Positions 4,943 to 59,428 of a stretch of 64,000 nt of DNA are shown piece after piece. The first letter of the stretch is position 1, and each line of letters opens with the position of its first letter. The DNA is from Sphingopyxis sp. DBS4 (GTDB taxonomy: Bacteria; Pseudomonadota; Alphaproteobacteria; Sphingomonadales; Sphingomonadaceae). The DNA is taken from the NCBI RefSeq assembly GCF_024628865.1, contig NZ_CP102386.1, positions 62,001 through 126,000 of the forward strand, written 5' to 3'. The notes under the pieces are model-generated. The model had not been told where the DNA came from, ran no database searches, and was given only the letters and a program-made list of their open reading frames with translations. A program made the translations under genes and the position numbers.

Positions 4943-4969
4943 CTCTCTTTCATCCCCCTTCCCTTTGGA
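4943..4969 (-). promoter_or_regulatory. G/A-rich leader motif (copy 1)
   Basis: On the minus strand this reads AAAGGGAAGGGGGATGAAAG, about 30-50 nt upstream of the 188-aa gene. It is one of ten similar motifs in the same position and orientation relative to minus-strand backbone genes. Confidence 0.5.
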
Positions 4970-5010
4970 GCCCCAGGGTTCGGTGGCATGGACGGGCATG
5001 TGCTTGTCGG

Positions 5011-5094
5011 CGCCGCGCGGGGGTTCGATGCCCCCGTGCGGCGCGTGGAGCCAAGAGAAGGGAAGAGAGGCCCCGGCGTCCGCCGGGGCCTCTC
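5011..5094 (-). terminator. Two strong hairpins after the DUF2493 gene
   Basis: The first hairpin downstream of the stop has 14-bp arms GAGAGGCCCCGGCG / CGCCGGGGCCTCTC (5065-5094). The second has 13-bp arms with one mismatch at 5011-5023 / 5031-5043 around a TTCGATG loop. Position directly after the stop codon at 5104 supports transcription termination. Confidence 0.7.
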
Positions 5095-5103
5095 CAAGGC
5101 GCG

Positions 5104-6183
5104 TCACCGACGACGCTGGCCACCGCCATTCACCATCGCGGCGTAGTAATCGTCCTGCGTCCAGGAATCGTATTCGTCGCGGGACTTGGAAGCATTCGCC
5201 TTGGACTGGACTTGCCGCGTCTTCGAACTCTGATCGAGCTTCACGACGTGAAGCGGGACGCCGGCCTGCCGCAGCTTCTGCGCGAGGTTCATCTGGATGC
5301 CCGACCCTTCGCAGATGACTGCTTCGACCGGCTTGAGTGCCAGCAGGCGATCGTTGCGGACGAAGGCGGCCTTGGCGCCGAGGCGGCGATCCAGCCGGAA
5401 CAGGATGACCTTCACGCCGCGCGCTGCCGCCCAGGCCTGGGCGATCGCGTCGCAGCCTTTGGTCTGCGCGGTGGTCGCGAGGATCATTTCCGGCACGCGG
5501 GCCTTGATCGAGTCGAGACCGCGCCAGAGCATCTCGTGGTCGTCCCAGACCTGACCGCCGGAGAAGGCGACGACGGGACCTTCGGGCGCGAACTGCTCGC
5601 GGCGCTCGCGAATTCGGGAAGCGAGATAGTCGCGGGCATCGATCATCGAGGCGGTGACCCCTCGGGAAACCCGGCTGCCGCGGGTCGGCGAGTAGGGGCG
5701 GCCAGTCTCGACGCGATAGACTTCGGCGGCATGGTCGCGCATGCATTCCATCGCATCGCGGCATCCCTGCAGCGACTGACACAGCAGCTGCGCCTCTTCG
5801 AGCTGCGAGGCGTAAATCTCGCTCGGATCGAAGCTGCGGGCGAGATCTCCAAGCTCCTTGGCTGCGTCGTCCTCGCGGTCGTTGATGCGCTTGGCGACGA
5901 CATGGAAGCTGTTGACGAAGCCCCAGGCGAGATCGCTCGCGAAAGGCTCGAGCCGCGTGTCGCGAAACACGTCGAACAGCGTCGCCATCACCATTTCCAC
6001 CGCTGCGCGGGCTTGCTCGGGATCGGGCATCTCGCGTTGCTCGGTCTCGTCGACGGGCGACAGCTTGGCGCGTTCGTCGTGCTCGATGAAAGCACCCTCG
6101 TAGATTGAACTCCGGCCGTGATGGCCGGTTTCGCCGGCGATGAAGCTGGCGAGGTCGGCGAAGTTCGTGAAAGACTTGGTCAT
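5104..6183 (-). CDS. DUF2493 (SLOG/YAcAr-like) domain protein, 359 aa
   Basis: The start MTKSF (ATG 6181-6183) has GGAGG five bases upstream. The N-terminal 190 residues are mostly helical. From residue about 203, VVAFSGGQVWDD begins a Rossmann-like domain of the DUF2493/SLOG type, including ILATTAQTKGCDAIAQ and an acidic VICEGSGIQ segment. SLOG-fold proteins bind nucleotides or nucleotide-derived ligands. This family is common on alphaproteobacterial conjugative plasmids, but its role there is not established. Leader element C lies upstream and terminators lie downstream, so it is a single-gene unit. Confidence 0.82.
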   Translation of the reverse strand: MTKSFTNFADLASFIAGETGHHGRSSIYEGAFIEHDERAKLSPVDETEQREMPDPEQARAAVEMVMATLFDVFRDTRLEPFASDLAWGFVNSFHVVAKRINDREDDAAKELGDLARSFDPSEIYASQLEEAQLLCQSLQGCRDAMECMRDHAAEVYRVETGRPYSPTRGSRVSRGVTASMIDARDYLASRIRERREQFAPEGPVVAFSGGQVWDDHEMLWRGLDSIKARVPEMILATTAQTKGCDAIAQAWAAARGVKVILFRLDRRLGAKAAFVRNDRLLALKPVEAVICEGSGIQMNLAQKLRQAGVPLHVVKLDQSSKTRQVQSKANASKSRDEYDSWTQDDYYAAMVNGGGQRRR

Positions 6184-6208
6184 GTGAGCCTCCATGGCGT
6201 TTTTGCTG

Positions 6209-6395
6209 TCTCATCCCCTCGGATGAGACCTGGCTCAGGGCATGCGGTGGTCAGGGAGGTCAGGCACGTTAACCGGGAAGCCGGCCGCAGGGCCGGACCC
6301 CGGTTAACGCCGCGCCAACGGGGAGTGGGGGAACCGATTTTGTCGGGGTTGCCGGGACGCGTCAGCGGCGCGGCGGCGCCGTCAAAATTGGGGGG
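6209..6395 (-). promoter_or_regulatory. Leader element C upstream of the DUF2493 gene
   Basis: It contains the hairpin TCTCATC...GATGAGA (6209-6228), the block GGTCAGGGAGG, a very strong nested hairpin with arms GTTAACCGGG (6268-6277) / CCCGGTTAAC (6299-6308), then GGGGGAACCGATTTTGTCG (6328-6346) opposite GTCAAAATTGGGGGG (6381-6395). Order and sequence closely parallel element B, and the inverted repeat again sits about 145 nt from the start codon. Confidence 0.6.
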
Positions 6396-6853
6396 ACCGC
6401 TCATGCTCGACGGACCGCCAACCCCGCATGCCACACTAGGCAGACACAAGAGAGGAATAGGGGTGTAAAACCTCACCGGCGAGGACAACCGCAAGCGGGA
6501 TCGTGACCCGGACGGGCGGAGACGAGGCGCAGGCCTCGGCTCCGTGAGGTTAGCCGGGGACCGCGCGCATGCGCGGGCGGCGGCTTAGCGAATAGAGCCC
6601 CGGTCCCGTCCTTCTGCCTTGGCGAAGGACGGGATGCGCCAACCATCCGTGCCGCCGCCCCATCCCCATGCTGCGCCATGCCGCAACCGGGAGCGTAGCG
6701 CCCCGAGATCAGACATATGGGCAATATCCTGCGAGCCAATCCGCTCGTGCCGGCAGGGCCTTCGGCATCGCGGCTTCCGCCGTGCGAGGGGTGGTCACGC
6801 CGGCGCCCGGGACATGACTGGCGCCCGTCCCGGGCATTCGACGTCGGCAGCGA
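6396..6853. other. Non-coding stretch with a terminator-like hairpin
   Basis: No convincing gene is present. A perfect 10-bp hairpin CCCGTCCTTC (6605-6614) / GAAGGACGGG (6624-6633) may end transcription of the minus-strand gene that stops at 6854. The rest is high-GC sequence without further recognisable structure. Confidence 0.45.
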
Positions 6854-7456
6854 TCAGACGGGGCCGATCCAGTCCGCAGCCTCACGCCACCCAAGGATGT
6901 CGCTGCCACTGTCGGAGACGGCGTCGTTCGAAATGTCGCGCCACGGCGAGCGCGGCCGATAGGTCGGCATGTATCGAGCGGTCATCAGCTCGAAGGTCGC
7001 GCAGCTATAGCCGCTGAGGCGAATGGCAAGCACCGGCTGATTCTCCGAAGGAAGATCGAAGAAGACCGAGGTGAAGCCGGACGGAAGCGGCCGGATCGTC
7101 GCATCGATCATCGTGCGCGCCAACCGAAGCTCGAGTTCGCCGGCATCGCTGCTCCAGGGATGCGCGTCGATATCATACAGATCGTCGCTGCCGGCGGCGC
7201 GCACACAGGAGAATTCCCCCGACCAGCAACGGCTGTCCGGGTGCAGGGCCGTGACCTCTGCGGGAAGACTGGCATCGCCGGTCTCCGAGCGGAGCCAGTC
7301 GGCAAGGGCCGGCGTGAGCCGGCCCGAGAGCTTGCGCGCGCGAACCGGCGCCGCGTCGAGTTCGGGAAACTCGACGAGCCACCAGGCGAGGCGGTGATGG
7401 AGAAGGACGCCGTAGCAATGCTCTACGGCGTGTCTGGGGGCGGGCTGTGTGGCCAT
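6854..7456 (-). CDS. Hypothetical protein, 200 aa
   Basis: The start ATG at 7454-7456 has AAGGA upstream. The protein looks like a compact alpha/beta domain with aromatic, acidic segments (CYGVLLHHRLAWWLVEFPELDA near the N-terminus; DDLYDIDAHPWSSDAGELELRLA in the middle) and ends in LGWREAADWIGPV. I recognise no catalytic motif or family. It lies 32 nt downstream of the 109-aa gene, which is downstream of ssb, so the three probably form one operon. Confidence 0.7.
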   Translation of the reverse strand: MATQPAPRHAVEHCYGVLLHHRLAWWLVEFPELDAAPVRARKLSGRLTPALADWLRSETGDASLPAEVTALHPDSRCWSGEFSCVRAAGSDDLYDIDAHPWSSDAGELELRLARTMIDATIRPLPSGFTSVFFDLPSENQPVLAIRLSGYSCATFELMTARYMPTYRPRSPWRDISNDAVSDSGSDILGWREAADWIGPV

Positions 7457-7488
7457 GAGCGGAATCCTTGCTTGAGCGGAAGGACGGG

Positions 7489-7818
7489 TCAGTGAACTGA
7501 CCCGTCATGCGCGAAGATGGCATCGGGGCTGATCAGCTGGTGCTCGCCGGCGACCAGCGACCAGGCCGCGGCGAGGTCGTCGTAATATTCGCTATCGACG
7601 ATCGCATCGGCACTGGCTTCGCCGAACTGGGCTTCTTCGAACGCGCGGACGTGGGCCGCGTCGGCGGCTTCGGCAATCGCCTGGGCGAGGCGTGCGGCGA
7701 TCTCGTAGCGGTTGAGGCGGTCTGCCGCACGCCGGATGCGGTCGACCATGGCGGGGTTCGTGGTCTCGATGCCGTGGGCAATGCCGGCGATCTCATCGAA
7801 GGTGGCGAGATGGAACAT
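7489..7818 (-). CDS. Hypothetical protein, 109 aa
   Basis: An almost wholly helical, acidic protein (MFHLATFDEIAGIAHGIETT at the N-terminus, then alanine-rich helices). It has no recognisable motif. It lies 53 nt downstream of ssb and 32 nt upstream of the 200-aa gene in the same direction. A GC-rich hairpin between it and ssb may weaken read-through. Confidence 0.68.
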   Translation of the reverse strand: MFHLATFDEIAGIAHGIETTNPAMVDRIRRAADRLNRYEIAARLAQAIAEAADAAHVRAFEEAQFGEASADAIVDSEYYDDLAAAWSLVAGEHQLISPDAIFAHDGSVH

Positions 7819-7871
7819 TGTGCTCTCCGTGGAAATGAGGAGGGCGGTCGCTGACGGCCGCCCGTCAGGGA

Positions 7872-8201
7872 TCAGAGGAACTCGATTTCCTCGGCGACGA
7901 TGTCGGTGTTGTAGTAGGTGCGCCCATCGCGCTCGTTGCGGCTGTAGCGGATCTCGCCGACGACCATCAGCTTGTCGCCTTTCTTCTTGTGGTTGGCGAC
8001 CGACTTGCCGAGGCCGTTGAAGGCCTTCACCGTGTGAAACTCGTCGTAGGTCTCGGTGTAGCCGTTGTCGTCCTTCTGTACCTGGCCGTCCTTGATCACC
8101 GGCTTGGAGGTGACGAGGCTGAAGCTGACGCCGCCCTTGCTGTCGGTGCCGAAGCGGCTGATGTCGGAGGTGATGCGGCCTGAGAGAAAAACCTTGTTCA
8201 T
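7872..8201 (-). CDS. ssb: Short single-stranded DNA-binding protein
   Basis: A 109-residue OB-fold protein. MNKVFLSGRITSDISRFG opens the first strand, and VKAFNGLGKSVANHKKKGDKLMVVGEI follows the usual SSB core. It is much shorter than a chromosomal SSB and lacks the long glycine-rich linker and acidic DDxPF tip, ending EEIEFL. Plasmid leading regions often carry an SSB gene that protects incoming single-stranded DNA and supports early establishment. Start ATG is at 8199-8201 with AAGG upstream. Leader element D precedes it. Confidence 0.88.
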   Translation of the reverse strand: MNKVFLSGRITSDISRFGTDSKGGVSFSLVTSKPVIKDGQVQKDDNGYTETYDEFHTVKAFNGLGKSVANHKKKGDKLMVVGEIRYSRNERDGRTYYNTDIVAEEIEFL

Positions 8202-8211
8202 GGTCGTGTGC

Positions 8212-8374
8212 CTTTCGCGTTCTCGCCAGCGGGCCGACCCCGCTGGGATGAACAGTCGCGAAAGCCCGTGAACGAGGGGGCGCCGCACCGGAGCGTCAGC
8301 GACGGGGAACCTGCGATTTTTCGGGTGGTGCGGGCAGAGGCCGCCAGGCCTCAACACGGCCGCAAAATCGGGGG
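8212..8374 (-). promoter_or_regulatory. Leader element D upstream of ssb
   Basis: A nested hairpin next to the start combines outer arms CTTTCGCG (8212-8219) / CGCGAAAG (8257-8264) and inner arms CCAGCGGG (8226-8233) / CCCGCTGG (8239-8246). Upstream is GACGGGGAACCTGCGATTTT (8301-8320) opposite CGCAAAATCGGGGG (8361-8374). The GGGGAACC and ATTTT/AAAAT core and the spacing of about 105 nt to the start match elements A-C. Confidence 0.6.
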
Positions 8375-9502: not shown

Positions 9503-9523
9503 GGCACGCTCCAGGCGGAATAG

Positions 9524-9546: not shown

Positions 9547-9584
9547 TTTTAGTAGGTTCGAGAAATACCGCCGCCAAACAAGAA

Positions 9585-9660: not shown

Positions 9661-9670
9661 CGGGGGGATT

Positions 9671-10210
9671 TCAGCTGACGGCTTCGGGCTCCTCCACCTG
9701 TTCGGCCGCACGCTGACGACGCTGACGCCGGCCGCCTTCAGGCTGTTCGCCACCGAAGGCGTGCTCTGCCGACGACTGGCCGAGGCCGGCCTCGGCGCCC
9801 TGCGCCGGCGCGCCGGCAGTCTCGCCTTCGCCGGGCAGCGGCGGCAGCGCGTCATCGGCCTTGCGCGCCATCTCCGAGGCGAGGTCGCGCCGCCGCGTCG
9901 GACGCGACCAGACCAGGTTGTAGCTGCCGTCCTCCTGGCGGAACGCCGAGATGTAAAGCGGCGCCGCCAGGCTCGGATCCTCGATCTTCCCGTTGAGAAA
10001 CGCCTCGCCCGTGCCGTTCGAGAACAACTCGAACAACGCACCCACCTGCACCCACGCCCGCGATGCCGACAGCGCCAGCACCTCGAACTTCGGCGCCTTC
10101 GGATTGGCCGAGTGCACCTCGCGCAGCGCGATCGTCATCGCAATCGTCAGCGTCTCGATCTTGCCGACGAAAATACCGCCTTCATTCTGCTTGATCGAAC
10201 CAATATTCAT
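9671..10210 (-). CDS. DUF736 protein, copy 1 (full length)
   Basis: 179 residues from ATG 10208-10210, with AGGAG eight bases upstream. The conserved DUF736 core occupies residues 1-105 (MNIGSIKQNEGGIFVGKIET, later NPKAPKFEVLA and SRAWVQVGALFE). A low-complexity G/E/Q/R-rich tail follows. DUF736 proteins are almost universal on alphaproteobacterial conjugative elements, but their function is unknown. A nearly identical second copy lies at 16351-16815; this copy has the longer C-terminus. Confidence 0.85.
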   Translation of the reverse strand: MNIGSIKQNEGGIFVGKIETLTIAMTIALREVHSANPKAPKFEVLALSASRAWVQVGALFELFSNGTGEAFLNGKIEDPSLAAPLYISAFRQEDGSYNLVWSRPTRRRDLASEMARKADDALPPLPGEGETAGAPAQGAEAGLGQSSAEHAFGGEQPEGGRRQRRQRAAEQVEEPEAVS

Positions 10211-10439
10211 GGAAAGTCTCCTGGATGATGGTCTCGAACACTGTGTCCGGGACACCGTCCTTCCTCCCCCTCCTCTCCTCGGCCGTTCGGCCGAGCCAGC
10301 GCGCAAGCGCCATATCCGAGGCCCGCGTCCGCGGCCTCGGGACGATCCGGTCGATCCATGGATCGATCCGAACAGCCCCCGCCTGGTCCCGGCCTGATCA
10401 ACCCCACCTCCCGACGCCAATCGTCGGGCAGCAGATCAG
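9754..10439. repeat. 686-bp direct repeat, copy 1
   Basis: Positions 9754-10439 match 16359-17044 base for base, with only a few differences (for example GGCAGTCTCGCC versus GGCGGTCTCGCC, and CACCTCCCGAC versus CACCCCCCGAC). It includes most of the DUF736 coding region plus its whole leader and the motif-bearing upstream region. The offset is constant at 6605, so no indel separates the copies. The right end is TCAG, beyond which the sequences differ completely. Confidence 0.9.
10211..10439 (-). promoter_or_regulatory. Long structured leader of DUF736 copy 1 with G/A-rich motif (copy 2)
   Basis: The motif CCGAGGAGAGGAGGGGGAGG (minus strand, 10261-10280) lies about 50-70 nt before the start. 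Further upstream come hairpins CTCGGCC/GGCCGAG (near 10278-10295) and CCGAGGCC/GGCCTCGG, and the palindrome TCGATCCATGGATCGA (10351-10366). The same leader was copied with the gene at 16816-17044. The stretch 10440-10601 holds no gene that I can support. Confidence 0.5.
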
Positions 10440-10897: not shown

Positions 10898-11593
10898 TCA
10901 GTTGAGTGGGGCCGGGAGCGCCAGCCATTCGGGCTGGTCGTCGGCAATGGGCGGATCGAAGTTCGCGGCCTCGGCCTCGGAAAACACCGTGGCGCCAGCA
11001 AGCGAGCCGAAGCCCGAATGGCTGTTCCAGAAGAGCAGGCCGGCCTCGGCGTCGCGCGTGACAAGGACGTATCCGTCGACACCTTCGTGGTGACCGCGCG
11101 CGATAGCGCGATCGAGGAGCCGGGACGAACCTGCGAACTCGAGCCCGTCTTCGCGGATGACGACATAGCCGCCGCCGAACTCACCAGGACGCAGGCGATC
11201 GCAATCGAGCGCATATTCGAAGCCAAACGGCAGAGCCGACCTCGCGGCGGCCTGGATCAGCAGCGCGGCGGTTTCGACATCGACCTGGTCGCCGTAGAAC
11301 CAGGCCTTGCAACGGCCTGACCCGTCGGACGGATCGACCTGCAGCGAAAAGCCGAGGCGTGGATAATCGGGATCGCTGAAGATCGCGCGAAATCCACCGA
11401 AGGGATCGGCCTCGATCGACGGGAAGCACGACGTGAAGGATTCGCCGAGCGCGGCATAAGCTGCGGCAAGTTCATCCTGCTCGAAACCAGAATCATCGAG
11501 AATTCCTGTAGCATCTTCGATCTTGCGCAGGACTTCGGCCTCGGCCTCGGTAACGGTGAGAACAAAGCTCGCTTTGACGAAATGGTTGGCCAT
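10898..11593 (-). CDS. Hypothetical protein, 231 aa
   Basis: Begins MANHFVKASFVLTVTEAEAEV. The protein alternates hydrophobic strands and acidic loops (for example RLGFSLQVDPSDGSGRCKAWFYGDQVDVETAA) and looks globular and cytoplasmic. It contains no catalytic signature that I recognise. It is the first gene of a two-gene operon and has an unusually long G-rich leader. Confidence 0.7.
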   Translation of the reverse strand: MANHFVKASFVLTVTEAEAEVLRKIEDATGILDDSGFEQDELAAAYAALGESFTSCFPSIEADPFGGFRAIFSDPDYPRLGFSLQVDPSDGSGRCKAWFYGDQVDVETAALLIQAAARSALPFGFEYALDCDRLRPGEFGGGYVVIREDGLEFAGSSRLLDRAIARGHHEGVDGYVLVTRDAEAGLLFWNSHSGFGSLAGATVFSEAEAANFDPPIADDQPEWLALPAPLN

Positions 11594-11657
11594 GTTCGCT
11601 CCTCACGAAAAAATAGGTTCGGGACGGCCAGGTCTCCGGCCTTGGAGACATGTCCTG

Positions 11658-11690
11658 CCCCTTCCCCCTTCCCCCTTCCCTGCTCCTCTT
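11658..11690 (-). promoter_or_regulatory. G/A-rich leader motif (copy 3), G-quadruplex type
   Basis: The minus strand holds four G-runs separated by AA: GGGAAGGGGGAAGGGGGAAG and a final GGGG. This meets the classical G-quadruplex pattern and is an extended version of the G/A-rich motif. It lies about 65-90 nt before the 231-aa gene. The rest of 11594-11913 should also contain the abiEi promoter on the plus strand. Confidence 0.55.
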
Positions 11691-14767: not shown

Positions 14768-15282
14768 ACTGGTGTCTCCTCAAGCGAGCGGTTCGCGGCC
14801 TCGGCGCAGCGGGGGTAGGCGGCGGCGAGATTGCGATGAAGGATCTCGAAGTCGGGAATGGGGAACCGTCCCAGCGGGTCGGGCCGCGTCGCGAGCAGCG
14901 CACCCATGACGATGTCGTCGATACGGTCCCGGTCGACCGCGGGGGCACGGCCGTCGTCGTAGCGGACCGGGGGCGCGAAACCGGCTTCGACCCAGCTGGC
15001 GAGACCGTCCTGGGCGGCCTCGACATAGGCCGCGACCGAGGGATCGCGACGATAAGCGCCCGCATCGACCTTGAGACCGAGCGTGCGATAGATGCCGAAG
15101 TCGTGCCGGTTGGTGATAAAGACGAGGGCACACCCGTCCGGGGGCGGGCCGAAGCGGGCGATGACGGCGGCCCGATAGGCGGCGACCTCAAGCCGGTTAA
15201 GGCGCTCGAAGTCGGGGGTGTGACCGAGCTGCGCGCAATCCTCGTGTCCGGGCGCGCCGCCGAGGTCGATGATGTCGGACAT
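14764..15282 (-). CDS. Hypothetical protein, 172 aa, first gene of the DUF6878 operon
   Basis: The start MSDIIDLGGAPGHEDC (ATG 15280-15282) lies shortly after AGGAGA-like sequence. The body holds strands such as ALVFITNRHDFGIYRTLGLKV and an acidic C-terminal helical region. I do not recognise the family. It heads the operon 15282-13590 and has the G/A-rich leader motif about 35-50 nt upstream. Confidence 0.7.
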   Translation of the reverse strand: MSDIIDLGGAPGHEDCAQLGHTPDFERLNRLEVAAYRAAVIARFGPPPDGCALVFITNRHDFGIYRTLGLKVDAGAYRRDPSVAAYVEAAQDGLASWVEAGFAPPVRYDDGRAPAVDRDRIDDIVMGALLATRPDPLGRFPIPDFEILHRNLAAAYPRCAEAANRSLEETPV

Positions 15283-15315
15283 GGCCTTCTCCTGTTGCGT
15301 GAACACAAAGGCACA

Positions 15316-15330
15316 CCCCCTCCTCTCTCC
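15316..15330 (-). promoter_or_regulatory. G/A-rich leader motif (copy 4)
   Basis: Minus strand GGAGAGAGGAGGGGG, preceded by a GGCC-TCAT-GGCC hairpin, in front of the DUF6878 operon. The rest of 15283-15489 shows no gene. Confidence 0.5.
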
Positions 15331-16350: not shown

Positions 16351-16815
16351 TCAGCTTGCGAAGGCGTGCTCTGCCGACGACTGGCCGAGGCCGGCCTCGG
16401 CGCCCTGCGCCGGCGCGCCGGCGGTCTCGCCTTCGCCGGGCAGCGGCGGCAGCGCGTCATCGGCCTTGCGCGCCATCTCCGAGGCGAGGTCGCGCCGCCG
16501 CGTCGGACGCGACCAGACCAGGTTGTAGCTGCCGTCCTCCTGGCGGAACGCCGAGATGTAAAGCGGCGCCGCCAGGCTCGGATCCTCGATCTTCCCGTTG
16601 AGAAACGCCTCGCCCGTGCCGTTCGAGAACAACTCGAACAACGCACCCACCTGCACCCACGCCCGCGATGCCGACAGCGCCAGCACCTCGAACTTCGGCG
16701 CCTTCGGATTGGCCGAGTGCACCTCGCGCAGCGCGATCGTCATCGCAATCGTCAGCGTCTCGATCTTGCCGACGAAAATACCGCCTTCATTCTGCTTGAT
16801 CGAACCAATATTCAT
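16351..16815 (-). CDS. DUF736 protein, copy 2 (shorter C-terminus)
   Basis: 154 residues from ATG 16813-16815. It is identical to copy 1 over the DUF736 core and most of the tail, but after EHAF the repeat ends and the frame stops two codons later (AS), so the Q/R-rich end is missing. Both copies keep the same ribosome binding site and leader. Retention of the full core suggests it is functional; a dosage effect is possible. Confidence 0.83.
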   Translation of the reverse strand: MNIGSIKQNEGGIFVGKIETLTIAMTIALREVHSANPKAPKFEVLALSASRAWVQVGALFELFSNGTGEAFLNGKIEDPSLAAPLYISAFRQEDGSYNLVWSRPTRRRDLASEMARKADDALPPLPGEGETAGAPAQGAEAGLGQSSAEHAFAS

Positions 16816-17044
16816 GGAAAGTCTCCTGGATGATGGTCTCGAACACTGTGTCCGGGACACCGTCCTTCCTCCCCCTCCTCTCCTCGGCCGTTCGGCCGAG
16901 CCAGCGCGCAAGCGCCATATCCGAGGCCCGCGTCCGCGGCCTCGGGACGATCCGGTCGATCCATGGATCGATCCGAACAGCCCCCGCCTGGTCCCGGCCT
17001 GATCAACCCCACCCCCCGACGCCAATCGTCGGGCAGCAGATCAG
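16359..17044. repeat. 686-bp direct repeat, copy 2
   Basis: Second copy of the segment at 9754-10439. Its right edge (17041-17044) supplies the stop codon of the neighbouring GHKL ATPase gene, so that gene ends exactly at the duplication border. No insertion sequence or target duplication is visible at either end. Confidence 0.9.
16866..16885 (-). promoter_or_regulatory. G/A-rich leader motif (copy 5)
   Basis: Identical to copy 2 because it is part of the duplicated leader of DUF736. Minus strand CCGAGGAGAGGAGGGGGAGG. Confidence 0.5.
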
Positions 17045-18696
17045 CTGCTCGCCGGAACCCGCTCAATCCGTAGATCGATGGCCTCGCGTCCGATAACGGC
17101 GACGAACCGGGAGCCTTCCGGAACGAACCATTGGGTCCGGTAGGCGAGGACGGCGCGCAGGCGCTCGAGCAGGGCCGCTTCATCGCCCAGAAGGAGACGG
17201 GTCGCCATTTCCTGCGCATCGAGCAGGAAACGATCGTGCTGCGTGTCCCAGCTATCAGCCTCGCGATCGTCGCTGGCGCAAAAGCAGGCGGCGTCGAGCA
17301 GATCGACCAGTTCGGCAGGCGTGACGGCCGTGGGTGCCGCCAGGAGAATATTGGCCTCCTCGAAGCTCCAGAAGAGGCCCTCGTCATATTCGATGGCGAC
17401 AGGCGCCGGTACATGAAGCGTTTCCGGGGCGGAGCCGGAAATCGTCAGCACGAGATCCAGTCGCTCGACCGTGCCGCTGTCGATACCGGGAAGGTCCGAC
17501 CCACCGAGCACAAGCGTCTCGCCCCCCTTGTCGATCTCGAAGCGGAGATCAGTGATCCGGGGAAGCCGGTCATACCAGCCATAGCCCACCATCGCCTCGT
17601 CGGATTCGGCGAGCCGTCCCTCATAGCGGCCGTCCTTCGAGAGCGCGAATGCAGCGCACTGCTCGAGCGGCGGCCCGAAATCATCGATCAGGACGAGATC
17701 GTCCGTCGAGGTCAGGTGCTGGTGCCCGGACCCGCTGTTGTAGTCGGCGACCGCCGGCGTCCATGAGAAAAGCTCACCCCGTGCCTCGGGAAGCTGAACA
17801 TCGAGATCGGCCGCCTCTCGCCAGTCCGCGAAGGCCAGACGATGACTGCCGAGCGCCTGGATATGCCGGTAGATGGCGAGGCGGATCGCCGCGCGCAGGC
17901 TCTGCAGCGCGCCATTCTCGACCATCTCCTTGCGGGCCGGGAGTACGAGCTGCAATTCCGGAGCATCGACGATGTCGATCTTGGCCGCCCAGTGGCGATC
18001 CTTTTCCGCGACCGTCGGAAGGAGCGAAGCGACAGTCACGCCATGGAAGTTGATGCTCGGACTGAAATGCCGGTGAAGATAGTTGCGATAGATGCCGATG
18101 CGGACGCCGTCCTGCTGGATGATCGTCTCTGCGCCCTTCAGCCAGTCCTCGCGGAGCAGGTCCTGGCCGTCGAGCCGAACCGGAAGCGGGCAATAACGCG
18201 CGGCGCTTTGTGCAATGGTCTCGAGTGACTTGGACCAGTGCGCGTCAATCGGCACCCGGATCTCGGTTCCGAACGGGTGGGTGCAGGGCGCAACGGCGAT
18301 GGGCGCGCCGGACTCCCAATCGCCTGAAGCGATGCGGATCGACCAGCCCTCGCCAGTCGAGCGCGGGCAGGAGCGAACCTCGACATCGCGACCGGCAAGG
18401 CTGAACACGCCCATGCCGGCAGGATCCTCCCGCCGCGCGATCTCGTCACCCCAACCCGACCGACCGAGGGCGAGAATGACCGATGGATCCTCGATCCCGG
18501 CGCCATCGTCGGCAATGGCGAGAAACGCAGTCCCATCGGCGTCGATGACCTTGAGGTCGACCGCGCTCGCACCCGCCCGGCGTGCGTTCTGGATAAGCTC
18601 GGAGAGAATATCGCCAAGCGTGTTATTGAAGAGGCGGGTGACTCTGGTGACGGCGGCAGGATCGACCTGGCTGTTGATCGTGGCGGGAAGGGACAT
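17041..18696 (-). CDS. GHKL-type ATPase, 551 aa
   Basis: The N-terminal 200 residues form a GHKL ATP-binding domain: ILSELIQNARRAGA (residues 30-43) is the N-box, FLAIADDGAGIED (58-70) the G1 box, and GMGVFSLAG (94-102) the G2 region, as in Hsp90/MutL/MORC-like proteins. The remaining 350 residues are not recognised and contain beta-rich acidic segments. Possible roles are chaperone, clamp-type DNA ATPase, or defence/anti-defence factor; nothing in the sequence decides. Last codons lie on the border of the 686-bp repeat. The G/A-rich motif lies 40-55 nt upstream. Confidence 0.78.
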   Translation of the reverse strand: MSLPATINSQVDPAAVTRVTRLFNNTLGDILSELIQNARRAGASAVDLKVIDADGTAFLAIADDGAGIEDPSVILALGRSGWGDEIARREDPAGMGVFSLAGRDVEVRSCPRSTGEGWSIRIASGDWESGAPIAVAPCTHPFGTEIRVPIDAHWSKSLETIAQSAARYCPLPVRLDGQDLLREDWLKGAETIIQQDGVRIGIYRNYLHRHFSPSINFHGVTVASLLPTVAEKDRHWAAKIDIVDAPELQLVLPARKEMVENGALQSLRAAIRLAIYRHIQALGSHRLAFADWREAADLDVQLPEARGELFSWTPAVADYNSGSGHQHLTSTDDLVLIDDFGPPLEQCAAFALSKDGRYEGRLAESDEAMVGYGWYDRLPRITDLRFEIDKGGETLVLGGSDLPGIDSGTVERLDLVLTISGSAPETLHVPAPVAIEYDEGLFWSFEEANILLAAPTAVTPAELVDLLDAACFCASDDREADSWDTQHDRFLLDAQEMATRLLLGDEAALLERLRAVLAYRTQWFVPEGSRFVAVIGREAIDLRIERVPASS

Positions 18697-18733: not shown

Positions 18734-18753
18734 GTCCCCCTCCCCTTTTCCCG
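18734..18753 (-). promoter_or_regulatory. G/A-rich leader motif (copy 6)
   Basis: Minus strand GGGAAAAGGGGAGGGGGACT, about 40-55 nt before the GHKL ATPase start, filling most of the short gap to the upstream DUF3768 gene. Confidence 0.5.
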
Positions 18754-18780: not shown

Positions 18781-19134
18781 TCAATAATCCTCGGCGAGCA
18801 TGATCGTGAGCACGCGCCGCGTGAGCGATGCGTCCGCTGGATCTTCCGATCCGAATTCGAGGGCGGGATCATAATAGTCGATCTTGAAGAAGATGCGTTC
18901 GCCCCGAAGATCAAAGGCGCCGAAGTCTCGTTCCGGGCCGTCGTCGGAGCCAAAGTCATACCGGCGGACGGCGGCGAGGAGTTCAGCCTGGGCAATGATT
19001 TCACGAACCGCGTCTTCTTCGCCTGCGAGACGAGCGAGGCAGGCGCGGGTCACGACAAGGCGAGCGGTCGGATCGAAACCCTGGCGGCAACGGTCGTTCA
19101 AACGGGCGATCTGTTCTGTAACGGAGATGGTCAT
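18781..19134 (-). CDS. DUF3768 protein
   Basis: 117 residues from ATG 19132-19134. The pattern IARLNDRCRQGF, then FGAFDLRGERIFFKIDYYD and the C-terminal RRVLTIMLAEDY is that of DUF3768, a short family found widely on alphaproteobacterial plasmids with unknown function. Its ATG overlaps the stop of the PP-loop gene by four bases, so the two were built as one operon. Confidence 0.82.
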   Translation of the reverse strand: MTISVTEQIARLNDRCRQGFDPTARLVVTRACLARLAGEEDAVREIIAQAELLAAVRRYDFGSDDGPERDFGAFDLRGERIFFKIDYYDPALEFGSEDPADASLTRRVLTIMLAEDY

Positions 19135-20109
19135 GCTGCCTCCTTCAGGCCGGCGTTGAACTGCTCGAGCCACTCCGCCATGGCCGGACGGTCGGGGAGC
19201 GGGACATGGGCCGCCACATCCTGGAACCGGATGAGGTCGGCAGGCGCGTCGTGGATGATCGCGTCGATGTCGGCGGCCGGCAGCAACTCTTCGGCGCGGA
19301 TGAAATCGGTCATGCGCCCGGGCCGCGTGCGCGTCGAGCGGCGCCACAGGCCTTCGACGGTCCTGAGACGCGGGGCCGCTCTCGCCTCGACCAGCACGAT
19401 GAGGCGCAGACACCAGGGCGGAAGGGCGCGAACTTCGTCCGGCTTCATCGCCCCGCAGATGAAGCAGCTCGATTTTGGCGGGATGGGAAGCTGAGCGGCT
19501 TCGATCCGGGCAATGCAGGCCGCGCGATCCCAGCCCCAATCGCGCAGAGGGTAGCGGCATTCGAAAAGATCGCTCGTGATGGTCGAGGCATGGGTATAAC
19601 GCCGCGTGTCAGCCGGCGATGCGTCGTAGCCGATAAGGCGAACGACCTTCTGGCCGCGCGCCCAGGCCTCCTTGGCCGGTTCCCACTGCTTGAGAAAGGC
19701 GTCCTGCGGGGCGACCTTCCATTTGAGCGAACACGAATGGCGCCCCAGCGAAATGCTCGGCAAGGTGGCGTTCGTCAGAACGTTGGACAGCAGATCGAAA
19801 TAGGGCGGCCAATGCTTGAAGCGGCGCGGTGTGTAGCGCACCGTCACATAGGGAATTCCTCGCGCCGCCATCCAGGCGGCGATCATCTTCTGATAAGGCG
19901 TAGGTTTCCGGCTTCTCGACGCCGGGGTCCCCGGTGATCACGAGGTCGGGCAGCGTGCCCCGGCTTTCAAGTTCGAGAAGAAGCGCGGTGCTGTCGACAC
20001 CGATGCCATAGGCCAGGACGACGGGTTGCGGCGCATCGACGCGAATATAATCGAGCAGGCGCGCGGGACCGGGGCCGGCCTCGGCCGGGATTGAGGTGAG
20101 ATCGCGCAT
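19131..20109 (-). pseudogene. Frameshifted PP-loop / PAPS-reductase-like protein
   Basis: The N-terminal part from ATG 20107-20109 reads MRDLTSIPAEAG, then VVLAYGIGVDSTALLLEL (an ATP-pyrophosphatase PP-loop) and ITGDPGVEKPETYA. At 19893-19897 one extra T (GCC-T-TATCAG) shifts the frame; the second frame continues YQKMIAAWMAARGIPY and carries a CSLKWK segment and SSCFICGAMKPDEV. Together they form one protein of about 325 residues of the adenine nucleotide alpha-hydrolase/PAPS-reductase type. The single indel could be a real mutation or a sequencing error. Family members on phages and plasmids act in nucleotide or tRNA/DNA modification; the substrate is unknown here. Confidence 0.7.
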
Positions 20110-20150: not shown

Positions 20151-20177
20151 ACTCCTTCCCACTCCCCTCTCACCTGG
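20151..20177 (-). promoter_or_regulatory. G/A-rich leader motif (copy 7)
   Basis: Minus strand GTGAGAGGGGAGTGGGAAGG, about 40-65 nt before the start of the PP-loop gene. It marks the last backbone operon before the cargo island. Confidence 0.5.
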
Positions 20178-50820: not shown

Positions 50821-51465
50821 TCAGGCGACGAGACGGGGAACAACGGGCTGCGACGTGGACAAGCGAAGCTCCCGCCGGATTCGTGCGGCGAAGCGGCCCG
50901 GGTCGACAAGTTCGCGGATTGACGCCCATCGATTACGGTCTCCAAGATGATCGTCGCGGCCCTGCACCTTGCGAAAGCACACTTCCCGATCGGGGCCGGA
51001 GAGGCCGAGCGAGAGTTGCACCCAGAGATCCTCGCCGTGCAGCGTCACTTCACCTGACACGGCGGGACCACCCTTGTTGGACCGGATATCGAAACTGCCC
51101 TCGTCGAGCGCGAGGGCGTCGGCCAGGCGGCGCATGGCGGCACGCCCCTCCGAATGAAACAGGCGCTTGGCGGGCTCGTCATGGGCGACGCCGCGATAGG
51201 CGAGCGTCTTCAGAACCGGCCGGTTTCGCAGCTCGGCGATCCGCGCGATGCAGTCGCGCCGCAGATCCGCATCCGTTGCACGCGTTTCGCACACCGTCCC
51301 CAGATGGCGCGCAAGCAGAATAACCGCCGGATCACGTTCGAGATCGAGGCCGGCGTTGCGGCAATCGGTGATGGCGGCGTGGATCGCATGCAGCGCCGTG
51401 CCGATCGTGATCAGCGCGCTGGGATCGAGAGCCTGACTGTAGCGGAAGGCGAGATCATAATTCAT
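50821..51465 (-). CDS. Hypothetical protein, 214 aa
   Basis: Start MNYDLAFRYSQALDPSALIT (ATG 51463-51465) with GGAGA upstream. Helical N-terminus, then basic and strand-rich regions (GGPAVSGEVTLHGEDLWVQLSL). First gene of the seven-gene operon down to 48193. The G/A-rich leader motif is 40-60 nt upstream. Unknown function. Confidence 0.68.
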   Translation of the reverse strand: MNYDLAFRYSQALDPSALITIGTALHAIHAAITDCRNAGLDLERDPAVILLARHLGTVCETRATDADLRRDCIARIAELRNRPVLKTLAYRGVAHDEPAKRLFHSEGRAAMRRLADALALDEGSFDIRSNKGGPAVSGEVTLHGEDLWVQLSLGLSGPDREVCFRKVQGRDDHLGDRNRWASIRELVDPGRFAARIRRELRLSTSQPVVPRLVA

Positions 51466-51504
51466 GAGAGTCTCCGGGTCTCGAGCGGTTCGGCCGCTCA
51501 CACC

Positions 51505-51527
51505 TCCGTCCCCCCTCTCCTCACCTT
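51505..51527 (-). promoter_or_regulatory. G/A-rich leader motif (copy 8)
   Basis: Minus strand GTGAGGAGAGGGGGGACGGA, next to a GAGCGGCC/CCGCTC hairpin, in front of the seven-gene operon and directly after the stop of the TGT-like gene. Confidence 0.5.
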
Positions 51528-53676: not shown

Positions 53677-54123
53677 TCAGTCCCCAGGAAACCAGTCGAA
53701 CGTCAAGGTGCGCGCGCCGGCCCGGCTTTCGAGTTCAAGGACGTCGGCAATGGTCCAGATCTTGCGGGATTCGCGCGCCAGGTCCGCGTAACCACCGTAG
53801 GTGCGGCCGCCATGCGCGATGAACTGGGCGTGGATGTTCTGGGTCGCCGCTTCGGAGAGAAAGAAGCCCGCAACGCCCTTGATATGTTGTGGCGGGAGAA
53901 CGCTCAGCATAGCGTCGTAGAAACGCTGCGTGATCCGGCTGAGGGGAAATGACGCCAATGTTTCGGCGCGCGTGCGTTCGAAATAGGCGTTGGTGGACTC
54001 GACAACAGCGTCGGGAAAGCGATCACGGTGACGCGCGAGCAGCGCGGCTGCGTCGTCCCTGCTGTGTGCGTAGTCGAGGGGGAATTTCGAAGACCGCGCG
54101 GTGATGTAAAAGTTAGTGTCCAT
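53677..54123 (-). CDS. Hypothetical protein, 148 aa
   Basis: From ATG 54121-54123 (MDTNFYITARSSKFPLDYAH), with AAGGA eight bases upstream. Middle: RFYDAMLSVLPPQHIKGVAG and GGRTYGGYADLARES. A globular mixed fold; unknown function. The G/A-rich leader motif lies about 35-55 nt upstream. Confidence 0.68.
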   Translation of the reverse strand: MDTNFYITARSSKFPLDYAHSRDDAAALLARHRDRFPDAVVESTNAYFERTRAETLASFPLSRITQRFYDAMLSVLPPQHIKGVAGFFLSEAATQNIHAQFIAHGGRTYGGYADLARESRKIWTIADVLELESRAGARTLTFDWFPGD

Positions 54124-54156: not shown

Positions 54157-54178
54157 CCATCCCTCTTCCCTCTTGCCA
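54157..54178 (-). promoter_or_regulatory. G/A-rich leader motif (copy 9)
   Basis: Minus strand CAAGAGGGAAGAGGGATGG, upstream of the 148-aa gene; the same AGGGAAGAGGGA core as the other copies. Confidence 0.48.
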
Positions 54179-55125: not shown

Positions 55126-55289
55126 GATGAGTCCTTTCTTGAGGAGGGAAACCGGCCGCTGGCCGTTTCCGGTTTGAGGATCGTCGGGCCGCGAGCGCTG
55201 GTCAGCAGGCGAACGCCCGCGTATCAAAGTCGTGGTATTTTCATGGCGTGCGGATGCGACCTTCCGCACCCGTCATTGTCGGAGCAGTC

Positions 55290-56216: not shown

Positions 56217-57166
56217 ACCCCGGCGGGGGAACGGCCTCGATCGGCGTGCATCCGGCCGGCTGCCGGCGACGCCTTGCTCTCTGCGCCGAAGCTCCTGAGA
56301 TAGGCGAAGGCCTGTTCAGCCTTGGCCGCGGCATGGATGATCGCGGTGGTGTCGCCGCGCAGGATGCCGAGCCAATGCCCGACATAGCTCGCATGACTGT
56401 CATGGAGGACGTTGGGCAGACCAAGGTCAGCACAGCAGAGCCCCGCCCCGATCTCCGCGACCAGTTCTTCGAACGCATAGGCCTTGTCGCCGAAGCGCTT
56501 ACCGAAGGTCCGTGCGAGTCGGCTGGAATGGCCCGACCAGTGAACCGTCTCGTGGCAACGCGTGGACGCATAGTGATCCATGCTGCGGAAGGCCGTTCGG
56601 TTCGGCAGCTGGATGTGATCGAAGGTGGGACTGAAATAGGCTTGGTTTCCGCCATGGCGAACGTCGGCGGGGATTCCCGTGAAGAAGGCGTCGATCGCCG
56701 CCTGCCGCTCGGACGGGATCAGAGGCTGCTCCGGTTCGTCAGAGGGGTAGAAATAGGCTGGAAGACCGTCGATCTGATCGGCGTTGAACACGATGTAATG
56801 GCGCAGGAACCGGATGCTCCGCTCCACTTGCTTGCCGGTTTCGGGGTGCTCCTCACGCTTCTTGAACGAGGAATAATAAACCGAAAGCGCGCCGGTTTGA
56901 CCCTTGCGGACGTGCCCGCCTAGCGTTTCCGCCTGGCGCCAGGTCATCCAGTAGCGCGAACGATAACCCTGGGCATCGCCGAGCGCCCAGAGATAAAGCG
57001 TATTGATGCCCTGATACGGTGTGCCGCAATGACGCAGCGGGCGTCCGCCCGCCCCGTTCAGCCGCCAGGGCCTCGACCAGGGCGGAACACCTTCTTCGAG
57101 CTTGCGGATGATGAGGTCGGTGATTTCGGCGGCAACATCGCGGCTCGTGCGTTTCGCAAGGGACAT
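56105..57166 (-). CDS. ardC: ArdC-type antirestriction protein
   Basis: 353 residues from ATG 57164-57166. The N-terminal single-strand DNA-binding domain (IIRKLEEGVPPWSRPWRL, YQGINTLYLW, YWMTWRQAETLGGHVRKG) is followed by a zincin-like domain with HETVHWSGH (205-213) and the glutamates AFEELVAEIGA. ArdC protects incoming single-stranded DNA and blocks restriction. Residues after about 317 are encoded antisense to the end of the cysteine-synthase-like gene and do not look like ArdC, so the original C-terminus has been replaced. Downstream of the ParB-like gene. Confidence 0.88.
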   Translation of the reverse strand: MSLAKRTSRDVAAEITDLIIRKLEEGVPPWSRPWRLNGAGGRPLRHCGTPYQGINTLYLWALGDAQGYRSRYWMTWRQAETLGGHVRKGQTGALSVYYSSFKKREEHPETGKQVERSIRFLRHYIVFNADQIDGLPAYFYPSDEPEQPLIPSERQAAIDAFFTGIPADVRHGGNQAYFSPTFDHIQLPNRTAFRSMDHYASTRCHETVHWSGHSSRLARTFGKRFGDKAYAFEELVAEIGAGLCCADLGLPNVLHDSHASYVGHWLGILRGDTTAIIHAAAKAEQAFAYLRSFGAESKASPAAGRMHADRGRSPAGVQYFRPVSQSTVATTASAVNRPDVSSFAAAQTFAAAE

Positions 57167-57195
57167 GGCAGCTTCTCCGTGCGGAAGGGGAAAAG

Positions 57196-57225
57196 GCCGC
57201 CGGCGCGGGACCGTGCGCCGGCGGC
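57196..57225 (-). terminator. Hairpin between the ParB-like gene and ardC
   Basis: Perfect 11-bp arms GCCGCCGGCGC / GCGCCGGCGGC around an 8-nt loop, directly downstream of the ParB-like stop. It may terminate or attenuate transcription into ardC. Confidence 0.65.
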
Positions 57226-57248
57226 AAGGCATCCAGGAGAAAGCGGCG

Positions 57249-59363
57249 TCAGGCCGCGAGAGCGTCCTGATCGGGCGATTCCGCTTCGACGTCGCCGATG
57301 CCGGGCGCCATCTCGTCGGCGCCAGCCGCGCCAGCCTCTTCGGCATCCTCGGGCTCGCCGGTCGCCTGCTCTTCAGGATCGCCTTCGGCGGGTTCGAGAT
57401 CGTCCGCCTCGGTCTTGTCGAGGAAGCGCATGGCGTCGGGCACCCAGGCGAGTGCCGCGTCCCGGACCTCGGGCTCGACGATCGCTTCGCCCGCGAAGAG
57501 CTTCGCGCACGATTCCGAGATCTCCGACTTCTTCATCGTCGCGTGGCGCGCGGTCAGCGTCGCGCCGCCGACATCGGCGAGCAGCGTCAGGATCGAGCCC
57601 TTGCTGATGCGGTCGAAGAAGTTTTCCGAGGTCGGCCGCCACCAGCTTGCGACATCGACGTCCATGATCGTCGCCAGCCGGTTGTGGAGCGGGCACTGCT
57701 CGGCACGGTAGCTCACCTTCGCTTCGAGCGACATCGCCACGATATAGGCGAGCCAGGCCGCCTTGCTGTCGTCGTCGAGCGCCCGGAACGCCTCGAACCG
57801 GTCGACCTCGGACTTGTGCTCCAGCCAGGTCGCATCGAGCCCGTCATGGGCTTCGGCGAGATAGCCCCGCGCGCGAGTCGCCGGCTGGTCGCCATTCACC
57901 GGATCCTGCGGCGAGCGAGCGCGAATGGTCGAGCCATAGGCGCTGAACGTGCTGACGCGATCGTCAATCATGACGAAGAGCGCATAATCGAGCGCCAGGG
58001 CCGGATGGCTGAGCAGGGTCGCTGCGAGCACGTCGCGCCGCTGCATCGCCAGCTCATCGTAGAGCCGGGCGCTGAGCGGCTTGCCGCCCGGGGCGATCGC
58101 TTCGGGCGGCGGAGCAGGCGGCGTGTAGCTGCCGCCCGGGCCGGTCGAACCGCCACCGCCGGCACCATCGCCGTGGTCGTCCTCGCCGTTTTCATCAGCG
58201 CCGCCGATGCTGACCGGTTCCTCGCTATAATATTCGGTGTCGAGGACCATCTCGCCTCTGGGCGTCAGCTTGAGAAACGCGCCGACGAGCGGCTTGATCT
58301 CGTCAGGCAGCACCGGCGGGATGTTGTGGAGCGCGTGTTCTTCCTCGGACAGGGCATCATATTCCTGGTCGAGCGCCTTGTACGCCTCCTCGCTGATGGA
58401 CTCGTCATCCATCTCCTCGGCGATGGCTTCCTGCCGCTGTGCAATCGCATCGAGGCGGGCCAGCTGCGCCTCGGTGAAATCAGGCTGCGGCAGGATCACC
58501 CGGTAGAGGCCGGTCGCCGCGCTATGCGTGTAGTTCGACGCGATCGGCCGGATCCAGGCGAGACCGAGTTCCTCGCCGATCCGCTTGGCCTCCGCTTCCA
58601 TGATGTCCGCGGCGAGCCGCTGCGCGATCTCGGGGTTCACCCATTTGTCGCCGCTGTCGCTGAAAAGGTCGCGGTCGATCTTGCCGCCAGCCTCGGCATA
58701 GCGGTCCTCGCCGACCAGGATCGCGACCGGATCGGTCGACTTCATCGTTTCGTTGGCGATGACGCGGCGGATGGTGTCGGCATTGGCATAGCTGGTGCCG
58801 TAGCTGTTCCAGACGAGAAGCTGCTTCTCCTGGTTTTCGGTCGAGGCATAGGCTTTCGCGACGTCGAGGGTAATTGTGCCTTCGCTCAGCGCCTCGAAGA
58901 TGGGCTCGGCCAGTGTGGCGAGACGCAGGCGCCCTTCGACGAACCGACGGGTGAGGCCGAAGCGCTTGGCGACACCGTCGATATCGTTGTTGAGGCCGAT
59001 GAAATATTGGAAGGCCCGGCATTCCTCGGCGGGCGTCATCTTGAGCTGATGGAAGTTGGCCGCGGTCGAGGTCTCGGACAGTGTCGCCTCGTCACCGACG
59101 AGAACCTTGACGGGAACATCGTAGGTTTCAGGGTCGATGGTGCCGCGCTCGGCGAGCATGAGCAGACCGCGCAGACGGCGACCTCCATCGAAGACCTCGA
59201 AAGTGCCGCGCGGCTTTTTCACAGGCGTGACGAGCAGGTTCTGGAGTACGCCGCGAGCTTCGAGATCGGCGGCCATCTGCGGTATTTCCAGCAGGTCGTC
59301 GGGCCGCCTGCGGACATTGATGGGAGAAAGCGTAAGCTTCGAGAGCTTAACGGTCGTGGTCAT
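57249..59363 (-). CDS. Large ParB-like protein (leading-region type)
   Basis: 704 residues from ATG 59361-59363 with GGAG upstream. The N-terminal ParB/Srx domain includes INVRRRPDDLLEIPQM, DLEARGVLQNLLVT and EVFDGGRRLRGLLML, followed by an HTH region (TPAEECRAFQYFIG, VAKRFGLTRRFVEGRLRL). A flexible G/P-rich linker is at about 405-440. The remaining 260 residues form an unknown C-terminal domain ending in an acidic E/D/A-rich tail. Such long ParB-like proteins sit in conjugative leading regions and are not true partition proteins; no parA is adjacent. Function probably in DNA protection or early regulation. Confidence 0.85.
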   Translation of the reverse strand: MTTTVKLSKLTLSPINVRRRPDDLLEIPQMAADLEARGVLQNLLVTPVKKPRGTFEVFDGGRRLRGLLMLAERGTIDPETYDVPVKVLVGDEATLSETSTAANFHQLKMTPAEECRAFQYFIGLNNDIDGVAKRFGLTRRFVEGRLRLATLAEPIFEALSEGTITLDVAKAYASTENQEKQLLVWNSYGTSYANADTIRRVIANETMKSTDPVAILVGEDRYAEAGGKIDRDLFSDSGDKWVNPEIAQRLAADIMEAEAKRIGEELGLAWIRPIASNYTHSAATGLYRVILPQPDFTEAQLARLDAIAQRQEAIAEEMDDESISEEAYKALDQEYDALSEEEHALHNIPPVLPDEIKPLVGAFLKLTPRGEMVLDTEYYSEEPVSIGGADENGEDDHGDGAGGGGSTGPGGSYTPPAPPPEAIAPGGKPLSARLYDELAMQRRDVLAATLLSHPALALDYALFVMIDDRVSTFSAYGSTIRARSPQDPVNGDQPATRARGYLAEAHDGLDATWLEHKSEVDRFEAFRALDDDSKAAWLAYIVAMSLEAKVSYRAEQCPLHNRLATIMDVDVASWWRPTSENFFDRISKGSILTLLADVGGATLTARHATMKKSEISESCAKLFAGEAIVEPEVRDAALAWVPDAMRFLDKTEADDLEPAEGDPEEQATGEPEDAEEAGAAGADEMAPGIGDVEAESPDQDALAA

Positions 59364-59408
59364 CGGAGGAACTCCTTCTGGCATCCGGATCAGCCCGGAC
59401 ACCAGCAT

Positions 59409-59428
59409 CACTCCCCCTTCCCTCTCGA
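59409..59428 (-). promoter_or_regulatory. G/A-rich leader motif (copy 10)
   Basis: Minus strand TCGAGAGGGAAGGGGGAGTG, about 45-65 nt before the ParB-like start. One of the clearest copies. Confidence 0.52.

Follow-up and report, generated by a model that had tools for sequence, protein, structure and literature searches.

A purine box and variable hairpins in the leaders of genes of sphingomonad plasmids: a candidate mRNA-level regulatory element

We analysed a window of 64,000 nucleotides (bases 62001-126000 of C3, a 227,036-bp sphingomonad plasmid of Sphingopyxis sp. DBS4; positions below are those of the window). A 14-nt purine box with the family-weighted consensus RRAGRGRAGRGGGA was found upstream of ten genes or operons on the minus strand. 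On balance, and judging by sequence comparison, the box appears to be a cis-acting mRNA leader element of one plasmid regulon that is read by a trans-acting factor. We prefer this reading because the box is often followed by hairpins with compensatory changes and sense-strand wobble pairs, because its orientation is fixed, and because no second conserved block accompanies it. The first-pass annotation had proposed a shared regulatory element of the core regulon of the plasmid. This proposal is upheld by the occurrence of the box on diverged plasmids, ahead of genes both related and unrelated, and the regulon can be narrowed to the probable leading (first-entering) region, given the strand of the TraD and relaxase genes and the box-free operon of the type IV secretion system (T4SS). 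Of the suggested functions, promoter, antitermination site or RNA-protein binding site, the data favour a leader acting at the RNA level, as the compensatory hairpin, the wobble pairs and the absence of a conserved promoter suggest.

Distribution of the box

A 14-nt purine matrix was built from the ten aligned sites of the first-pass annotation, all of which are present on the minus strand, and scanned over both strands of C3. The eleven best matches are the ten sites (14.2-22.2 bits) and an eleventh at 68953 in window coordinates, in the leader of a 1406-aa gene, whose 15.3 bits rank amid the ten. All eleven are intergenic and lie in the sense-strand leader of the next gene. The best place after them scores 13.8 bits and is on the plus strand, 80 nt 5' of a plus-strand gene. 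Dinucleotide-shuffled plasmids contain 0-4 matches of at least 14 bits (ten shuffles, mean 1.9) versus 11 in the real sequence. As the matrix had been trained on the ten sites, a leave-one-out run was made: for seven of them no unlisted position scores equally high, for the duplicated DUF736 pair one such position exists, and the site at 51505 is weak by sequence alone, with 19 other positions equal or better. The relatives of the gene behind this last site, the 214-aa family, have better boxes. Thus the earlier count of ten copies with a shared core needs correction in detail: all ten are real, but two represent one duplicated leader, which leaves nine independent ones, an eleventh site is added, and the one at 51505, taken by itself, matches poorly.

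Among the genes called between -6 and 72 kb, the best score in the 130 nt 5' of the gene is 14.2-22.2 bits for the box genes and at most 7.4 for all others bar one; the leader of a plus-strand open reading frame (ORF) with a weak coding score (4085-4348) has a match of 12.8 bits overlapping the ORF start. No copy had been noticed in the cargo island at 20.5-48 kb, and indeed the best leader there has 3.5 bits, and the matches above 8 bits are inside genes.

The matrix was also applied to relatives. The box was found ahead of related genes on the diverged plasmids pLA4, p-B-Sy and pSCLO_2, and also in the scanned parts of replicons G080, G125, G121, G146, G059 and G119; thus orthologous leaders carry it. 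A larger sample was formed by the best 80 of 161 ParB relatives in genome contigs, with a box threshold of at least 13 bits. These loci contain 55 distinct ParB leaders; the box reaches 13.7 bits or more in 54 of them, and the remaining one (locus L155) has a G/A tract of 10.2 bits. The 226 matches in the loci comprise 218 on the ParB strand; 199 are situated within 135 nt 5' of a start, and all 199 have the sense orientation. Only 20 of the 226 are inside genes, so that the refuting outcomes named in advance, a box missing from orthologous leaders or equally common in genes, did not occur. The matches define 137 distinct leaders: 59 belong to ParB genes, 25 to helicase-like genes, 18 to the 214-aa family, 11 and 10 to two other families, and the rest to smaller groups. 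As the loci were picked via ParB, the ParB leaders are no independent sample, and the better test is provided by the 78 leaders that precede non-ParB genes, which belong to several unrelated families. The PRTRC ParB genes of two replicons (pLA4 and pSCLO_2) are also preceded by the box.

These data bear on the simplest alternative, that the sites are chance purine-rich stretches or Shine-Dalgarno boxes of short upstream ORFs. The leaders are purine-rich, and in 30 of 49 ParB leaders there is an in-frame start codon after the box; outside ParB such starts occur in 12 of 68 leaders, near the 12% seen in shuffled sequences, and upstream reading frames were rejected as a general account. Together with the enrichment, orientation and conservation of the box, this refutes the alternative as a general explanation, and we give it next to no weight.

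Two broader assignments were rejected. The box is not a generic signal of DUF736 genes: in genomes of the order and class, one of 58 DUF736 loci (L056) has it ahead of the gene at 13 bits or more. Neither is it a host-wide signal: the strict consensus AGAGGGRAGGGGGA, searched together with a reversed control in 119 genomes of the family Sphingomonadaceae, has 12 matches in six genomes. Nine of the 12, by reading of the surroundings, are leader sites ahead of genes for ParB, helicase-like proteins or PRTRC ParB, and the signal therefore belongs to this plasmid group and not to the hosts at large. Seven 20-kb chromosome pieces contain three matches of at least 12 bits, one of them (14.2 bits) 39 nt 5' of a gene; thus single chance matches in leaders occur. 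A search for the PRTRC ParB family in the class gave no hits over the cut-off in 289 genomes, only ordinary ParB-like matches, and was not used. Rfam release 15 has no match in the window at the gathering score, and the best match of the ParB leader at E<=5 is malK-III (18.5 bits, gathering score 50). No published description of the box was found in searches of an open-access library, where most subscription papers are missing.

Leader structure and the level of action

In a family-weighted comparison of 183 leaders from 22 families, the 14-mer is the sole strong block, followed by mild G/A richness, with no second conserved block at fixed spacing on either side. Positions A3 and A8 are nearly fixed, and the consensus may be read as an AGRGR unit that recurs every 5 nt. 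Among 48 ParB leaders, information per position does not exceed 0.3 bits from -100 to -4 relative to the box, rises in the last 3-4 nt and reaches 0.9-2.3 bits inside it; conservation is confined to the box and about 48 nt downstream. The helicase and 214-aa families have a similar border; the 201-aa and 281-aa samples are small.

Between the box and the Shine-Dalgarno box a hairpin was observed whose sequence differs by gene family. The mean folding z-score of 117 box leaders is -2.12, versus -0.38 for control leaders from the same loci (300 of 378; p 3e-22), with family means of -2.71 (ParB), -2.38 (214-aa) and -2.08 (helicase). The ParB hairpin (43 sequences) has nine pairs, is 95.3% paired and shows changes on both sides in three pairs; one U.G pair is preserved in 40 of 43 sequences. 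The helicase hairpin (22 sequences) has 11 pairs, is 79.5% paired and has both-side changes in seven pairs (22 cells); its count of further pair types was equalled by 66 of 500 shuffles. The hairpin of the 214-aa family (15 sequences) has six pairs, is 94.4% paired and has both-side changes in three. In all three families, slid structures have far fewer paired cells than the real hairpin. Conserved secondary structure with compensatory changes is thus seen in three gene families and unseen in two. The ratio of G.T to A.C pairs, scored symmetrically, is 159:47 in 176 leaders (86:6 in ParB alone) versus 507:612 in shuffles, and this excess indicates that the sense strand is the one that folds.

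It is less probable, yet a serious candidate, that the element acts in DNA, the box being a promoter core, a site for an activator or repressor of plasmid or host origin, or a site for a non-standard polymerase or sigma factor, with the hairpin a separate stabiliser of the 5' end. The sharp 5' border of conservation would fit a box that is the promoter itself. So would the absence of a conserved sigma-70-like promoter nearby: the best -35/-10 pairs by the eleven boxes have 6-8 matching positions out of 12, AT content 5' of the box is not raised (0.33-0.40 versus 0.39-0.42 before control genes), and a sigma-70 promoter of the standard type close to the box was not found. Moreover, transcription must begin very near the box in C3, as the room up to a divergent gene is about 90 nt for the ParB leader and, as called, about 21 nt for the helicase leader. 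On the other hand, the 14-mer has no partner at fixed spacing; the gap between box and start in the 281-aa family (interquartile range 24-28 nt) is too short for a -35-type box; and the strict sense orientation and the sense-strand wobble pairs point to RNA. Finally, 134 leaders have an upstream neighbour, divergent in 44 cases and on the same strand in 90, and 39 of the latter end within 40 nt.

The median distance from the end of the box to the start codon is 48 nt in the ParB and helicase families and 46 nt in the 214-aa family, as compared to 29 and 25.5 nt in the families lacking a hairpin. The last 9 nt before the start contain CCC in 63 of 117 box leaders versus 128 of 850 control genes, and the predicted pairing between the box and this stretch is 0.19-0.25 in the three large families versus 0.02-0.12 in shuffled leaders.

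A purine-rich box might also act by itself, as an mRNA stabiliser or ribosome standby site at which the 30S subunit binds a Shine-Dalgarno-like sequence and protects or loads the mRNA with no special factor. A polypurine leader stabilises mycobacterial katG mRNA, according to the account in PMC2358910, and the AGGGGGA of the box is able to pair with the anti-Shine-Dalgarno sequence with one G.U. The predicted duplex of the box is just slightly stronger than that of shuffled sequences (-14.6 versus -12.9 kcal/mol, one third of the shuffles being stronger), GGAGG occurs in 93 of 176 leaders with 90.0 expected, and selection for anti-Shine-Dalgarno complementarity was therefore rejected as not clear. 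In addition, a generic stabiliser would be expected beyond one plasmid group, while hardly any other gene of the 119 genomes has the strict box. We regard this explanation as improbable.

If the preferred reading of an mRNA leader is correct, the element would consist of a single-stranded 14-nt purine box, often a family-specific hairpin, then the Shine-Dalgarno box and the start codon, and would act in the transcript. One trans-acting factor, which could be a plasmid protein, a host protein or a small RNA, would read the common box and set the translation or decay of all box mRNAs together. The existence of such a factor is suggested by the sharing of the box; no RNA-binding family was observed among the 29 window proteins scanned against Pfam. 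In the families with hairpins, we propose, the CCC-rich stretch just 5' of the start could pair with the box and close the ribosome site, and binding of the factor to the box would open it. The regulon would coincide with the leading region and serve timed expression on entry into the recipient. It is conceivable, and we propose it tentatively, that this is a post-transcriptional entry regulon, in which the box is read by a single dedicated factor, an RNA-binding protein or a small RNA, and the establishment genes are thereby switched as a set in their translation on arrival, with no shared promoter.

Several observations weigh against the preferred reading. In the window, the z-score is below -1.5 in just two of ten leaders. 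The 201-aa and 281-aa families (20 leaders) have no clear hairpin (mean z -0.69 and -0.60) and no CCC stretch in any leader. Of the 117 fold-tested leaders, 43 come from non-independent close relatives, and the ParB family dominates; the ratio of G.T to A.C falls to 73:41 when it is left out. A constant effective distance from box to start after removal of the hairpins is indistinguishable from that in shuffled leaders. The pairing of the box with CCC is a matter of predicted energies, and covariation provides no test of it as the box barely varies. The DUF736 leaders share sequence 5' of the box as well, including a GGCC...GGCC repeat directly upstream. Lastly, the strict pattern is genome-wide no commoner than the reversed control (12 versus 9 matches in the 119 genomes).

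The activation of the first plasmid genes in a new host is understood in few systems, based on single-stranded DNA promoters or DNA repressors. A compact shared leader provides a sequence handle that defines the regulon, predicts establishment roles for uncharacterised genes and makes an RNA-level mechanism directly testable. Plasmids of sphingomonads carry many genes for degradation of pollutants, and control of their transfer is thus of practical interest.

Position on the replicons and sites in the window

In nine replicons or their parts, surveyed for sites of at least 13 bits with a start within 135 nt, 41 of 42 box sites are on the strand of the TraD and MobF relaxase genes, the exception being C3:39882 (plus strand, 13.8 bits). 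T4SS markers were detected in four replicons (C3, G059, G146 and G000:C2), and there the T4SS genes are box-free and on the opposite strand. TraD and the relaxase come after the gene of a 96-aa protein, which weakly matches a ribbon-helix-helix family (E 0.017, below the cut-off). In plasmid R388 the gene order is trwABC, and the origin of transfer (oriT) adjoins trwA. The order observed here resembles trwABC, and if the likeness holds, a candidate oriT is at about 1513-2066. In that case the box genes would make up the leading region, the first-entering strand being their template and transcription running towards oriT. Alternatively, oriT is possibly situated near the T4SS operon. The SSB gene (7872-8201) lies amid the box genes and itself has no box. 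In other plasmids, as far as PMC11541004 describes them, genes of the leading region are expressed early and from one strand.

This position is the basis of a further explanation, that the element is a single-strand entry signal acting on the incoming transferred strand, for example as a single-stranded DNA promoter like Frpo/ssi or as a site of priming. The strand of the box genes is as expected if the incoming strand, deduced from the candidate oriT, is the template, and Frpo promoters serve leading-region genes in the systems described in PMC11541004. The wobble pairs, however, favour the strand opposite to a template transferred strand, and the stems of 5-11 bp are too short for a -35 and a -10 hexamer, no such hexamers having been found. 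This explanation is very improbable.

Three features were observed around the candidate oriT. The region 1500-4400 by the TraD/relaxase operon is 72-93% conserved between plasmids, has few clear genes, and is a candidate oriT region. A charged, probably coiled 72-aa protein with no Pfam match (2066-2284, plus strand) is encoded beside the putative oriT in five replicons. A second repeat occurs on the plus strand at 3561-3700 and about 6308-6413, on either side of a DUF2493 gene (5104-6183). It is an imperfect hairpin of 70-140 nt, GCGGGGG(A/T)R-CCGATTTT...AAAATTGGGGGGAC-CGC..ATCCTTGACGG, with 15 pattern copies in eight of 12 replicons, where every copy has the orientation opposite to that of the box genes or TraD. 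The predicted stem has 41 G.T versus one A.C, a count biased by the prediction of the structure for that strand; the repeat is possibly an RNA, or else the entering strand may fold in this way near oriT.

The ten boxes of the window are all on the minus strand and end 32-69 nt before the start codon, close to the 30-65 nt given originally. The box AAAGGGAAGGGGGA (4953-4966; 21.2 bits; z -1.0) is 35 nt 5' of a 188-aa gene (4351-4917). The box GGAGAGGAGGGGGA (10265-10278; 19.1 bits) is 54 nt 5' of a DUF736 gene (9671-10210) and is followed by the hairpin GTGTC-CCG-GACAC (10243-10255), weak alone (z -0.8). The same box (16870-16883), 54 nt 5' of the second DUF736 gene (16351-16815), and the same hairpin (16848-16860; z -0.8) belong to a copy of this leader: the two are identical from at least 130 nt 5' of the box into the coding region, which suggests a recent duplication or gene conversion. 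The source genome (C1, C2 and C3) has 13 DUF736 genes, the majority chromosomal, suggesting several integrated elements of related kinds. The box AGGGGGAAGGGGGA (11663-11676; 18.6 bits), within a longer G/A run (11658-11690), is 69 nt 5' of a 231-aa gene (10898-11593), with the hairpin GTCTCC-aaggcc-GGAGAC at 11632-11649 (z -1.6).

The box AGAGAGGAGGGGGT (15315-15328; 18.8 bits) is 32 nt 5' of the ATG at 15282. This start, selected by comparing related proteins, is that of the gene that opens the DUF6878 operon and extends to 14764. A possible stem GCCTT/AAGGC around the Shine-Dalgarno box (15284-15312) is suggested by the sequence, with unsupportive energy (z 0.8); the equivalent leaders of G080 and G121 have stems enclosing the Shine-Dalgarno box. 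The box AAAGGGGAGGGGGA (18735-18748; 21.0 bits) is 38 nt 5' of a gene (17041-18696) encoding a 551-aa GHKL-like ATPase, whose HATPase_c_3 match in Pfam is below the cut-off. The box AGAGGGGAGTGGGA (20157-20170; 20.2 bits) is 47 nt 5' of the ATG at 20109. The next start called by the gene finder is 309 nt off, as the gene behind the box is frameshifted (pieces 19609-20109 and 19131-19847). This PP-loop gene (19131-20109, minus strand) is split over two frames, and its relatives (pSCLO_2, p-B-Sy, G146, G119 and G080) can be aligned to most of the gene in a single frame; the split is either a true frameshift or a sequencing error.

The degenerate box AGAGGGGGGACGGA (51505-51518; 14.2 bits, 9.1 in the leave-one-out run) is 39 nt 5' of a 214-aa gene (50821-51465), and the upstream gene ends 8 nt ahead of it. 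Its leader contains the hairpin GAGCGG-ccgaa-CCGCTC (51483-51499; z -1.3), with covariation in relatives. The box AGAGGGAAGAGGGA (54160-54173; 21.2 bits) is followed after 36 nt by the ATG (54123) of a gene for a 148-aa protein (53677-54123) that has a weak DUF1419 match. The box AGAGGGAAGGGGGA (59412-59425; 22.2 bits) is 48 nt 5' of the 704-aa ParB-like gene (57249-59363), with the hairpin CTGGTGTCCGG-gctgat-CCGGATGCCAG (59378-59405; z -2.6) containing U.G and G.U pairs. The z-scores at 54160, 18735 and 15315 are near zero or positive; the leader at 20157 is outside the folded set.

Comparison with known systems

The nut sites of phage lambda consist of boxA and the boxB hairpin. The element described here is similar in that a linear conserved box precedes a hairpin whose sequence varies. 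The box sequence is unrelated, however, and the box also precedes short single genes, with no sign of antitermination.

The mycobacterial katG stabiliser, as outlined in PMC2358910, also has a purine tract near the start codon, and a role in mRNA stability may be common to both. The difference is a specific 14-nt consensus common to a regulon, accompanied by a hairpin and 25-50 nt from the start, as compared to 4 bp in katG. The Frpo/ssi single-strand promoters of F and ColIb-P9, in the descriptions given in PMC11541004 and PMC8708921, are likewise structured, have one orientation and are upstream of leading-region genes. Their hairpins on the transferred strand contain -35 and -10 sequences, which were not observed here, where matches do not exceed those given above, and the folding strand, judged by sense-strand G.T pairs, is opposite to the putative transferred one.

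A further close parallel is given by the establishment gene regulatory sequences EGeRS1 and EGeRS2 of pLS20-family plasmids (PMC8708921), where one regulatory sequence precedes several establishment operons of a conjugative plasmid. That paper describes EGeRS1 as a Bacillus plasmid region of 400-600 bp containing multiple inverted repeats, in which no strong promoter was detected and which acts by an unknown mechanism; EGeRS2 is controlled by a DNA-binding repressor. Here, too, the same sequence precedes several operons with a putative establishment role, assigned by position (the ten boxes of the window and one more; nine replicons). In contrast to these systems, it is a 14-nt box and a short hairpin, both no more than about 60 nt from the start, on Gram-negative plasmids, and no conserved region of the length of EGeRS1 with multiple inverted repeats was observed, conservation of the ParB leaders being limited to the box and about 48 nt.

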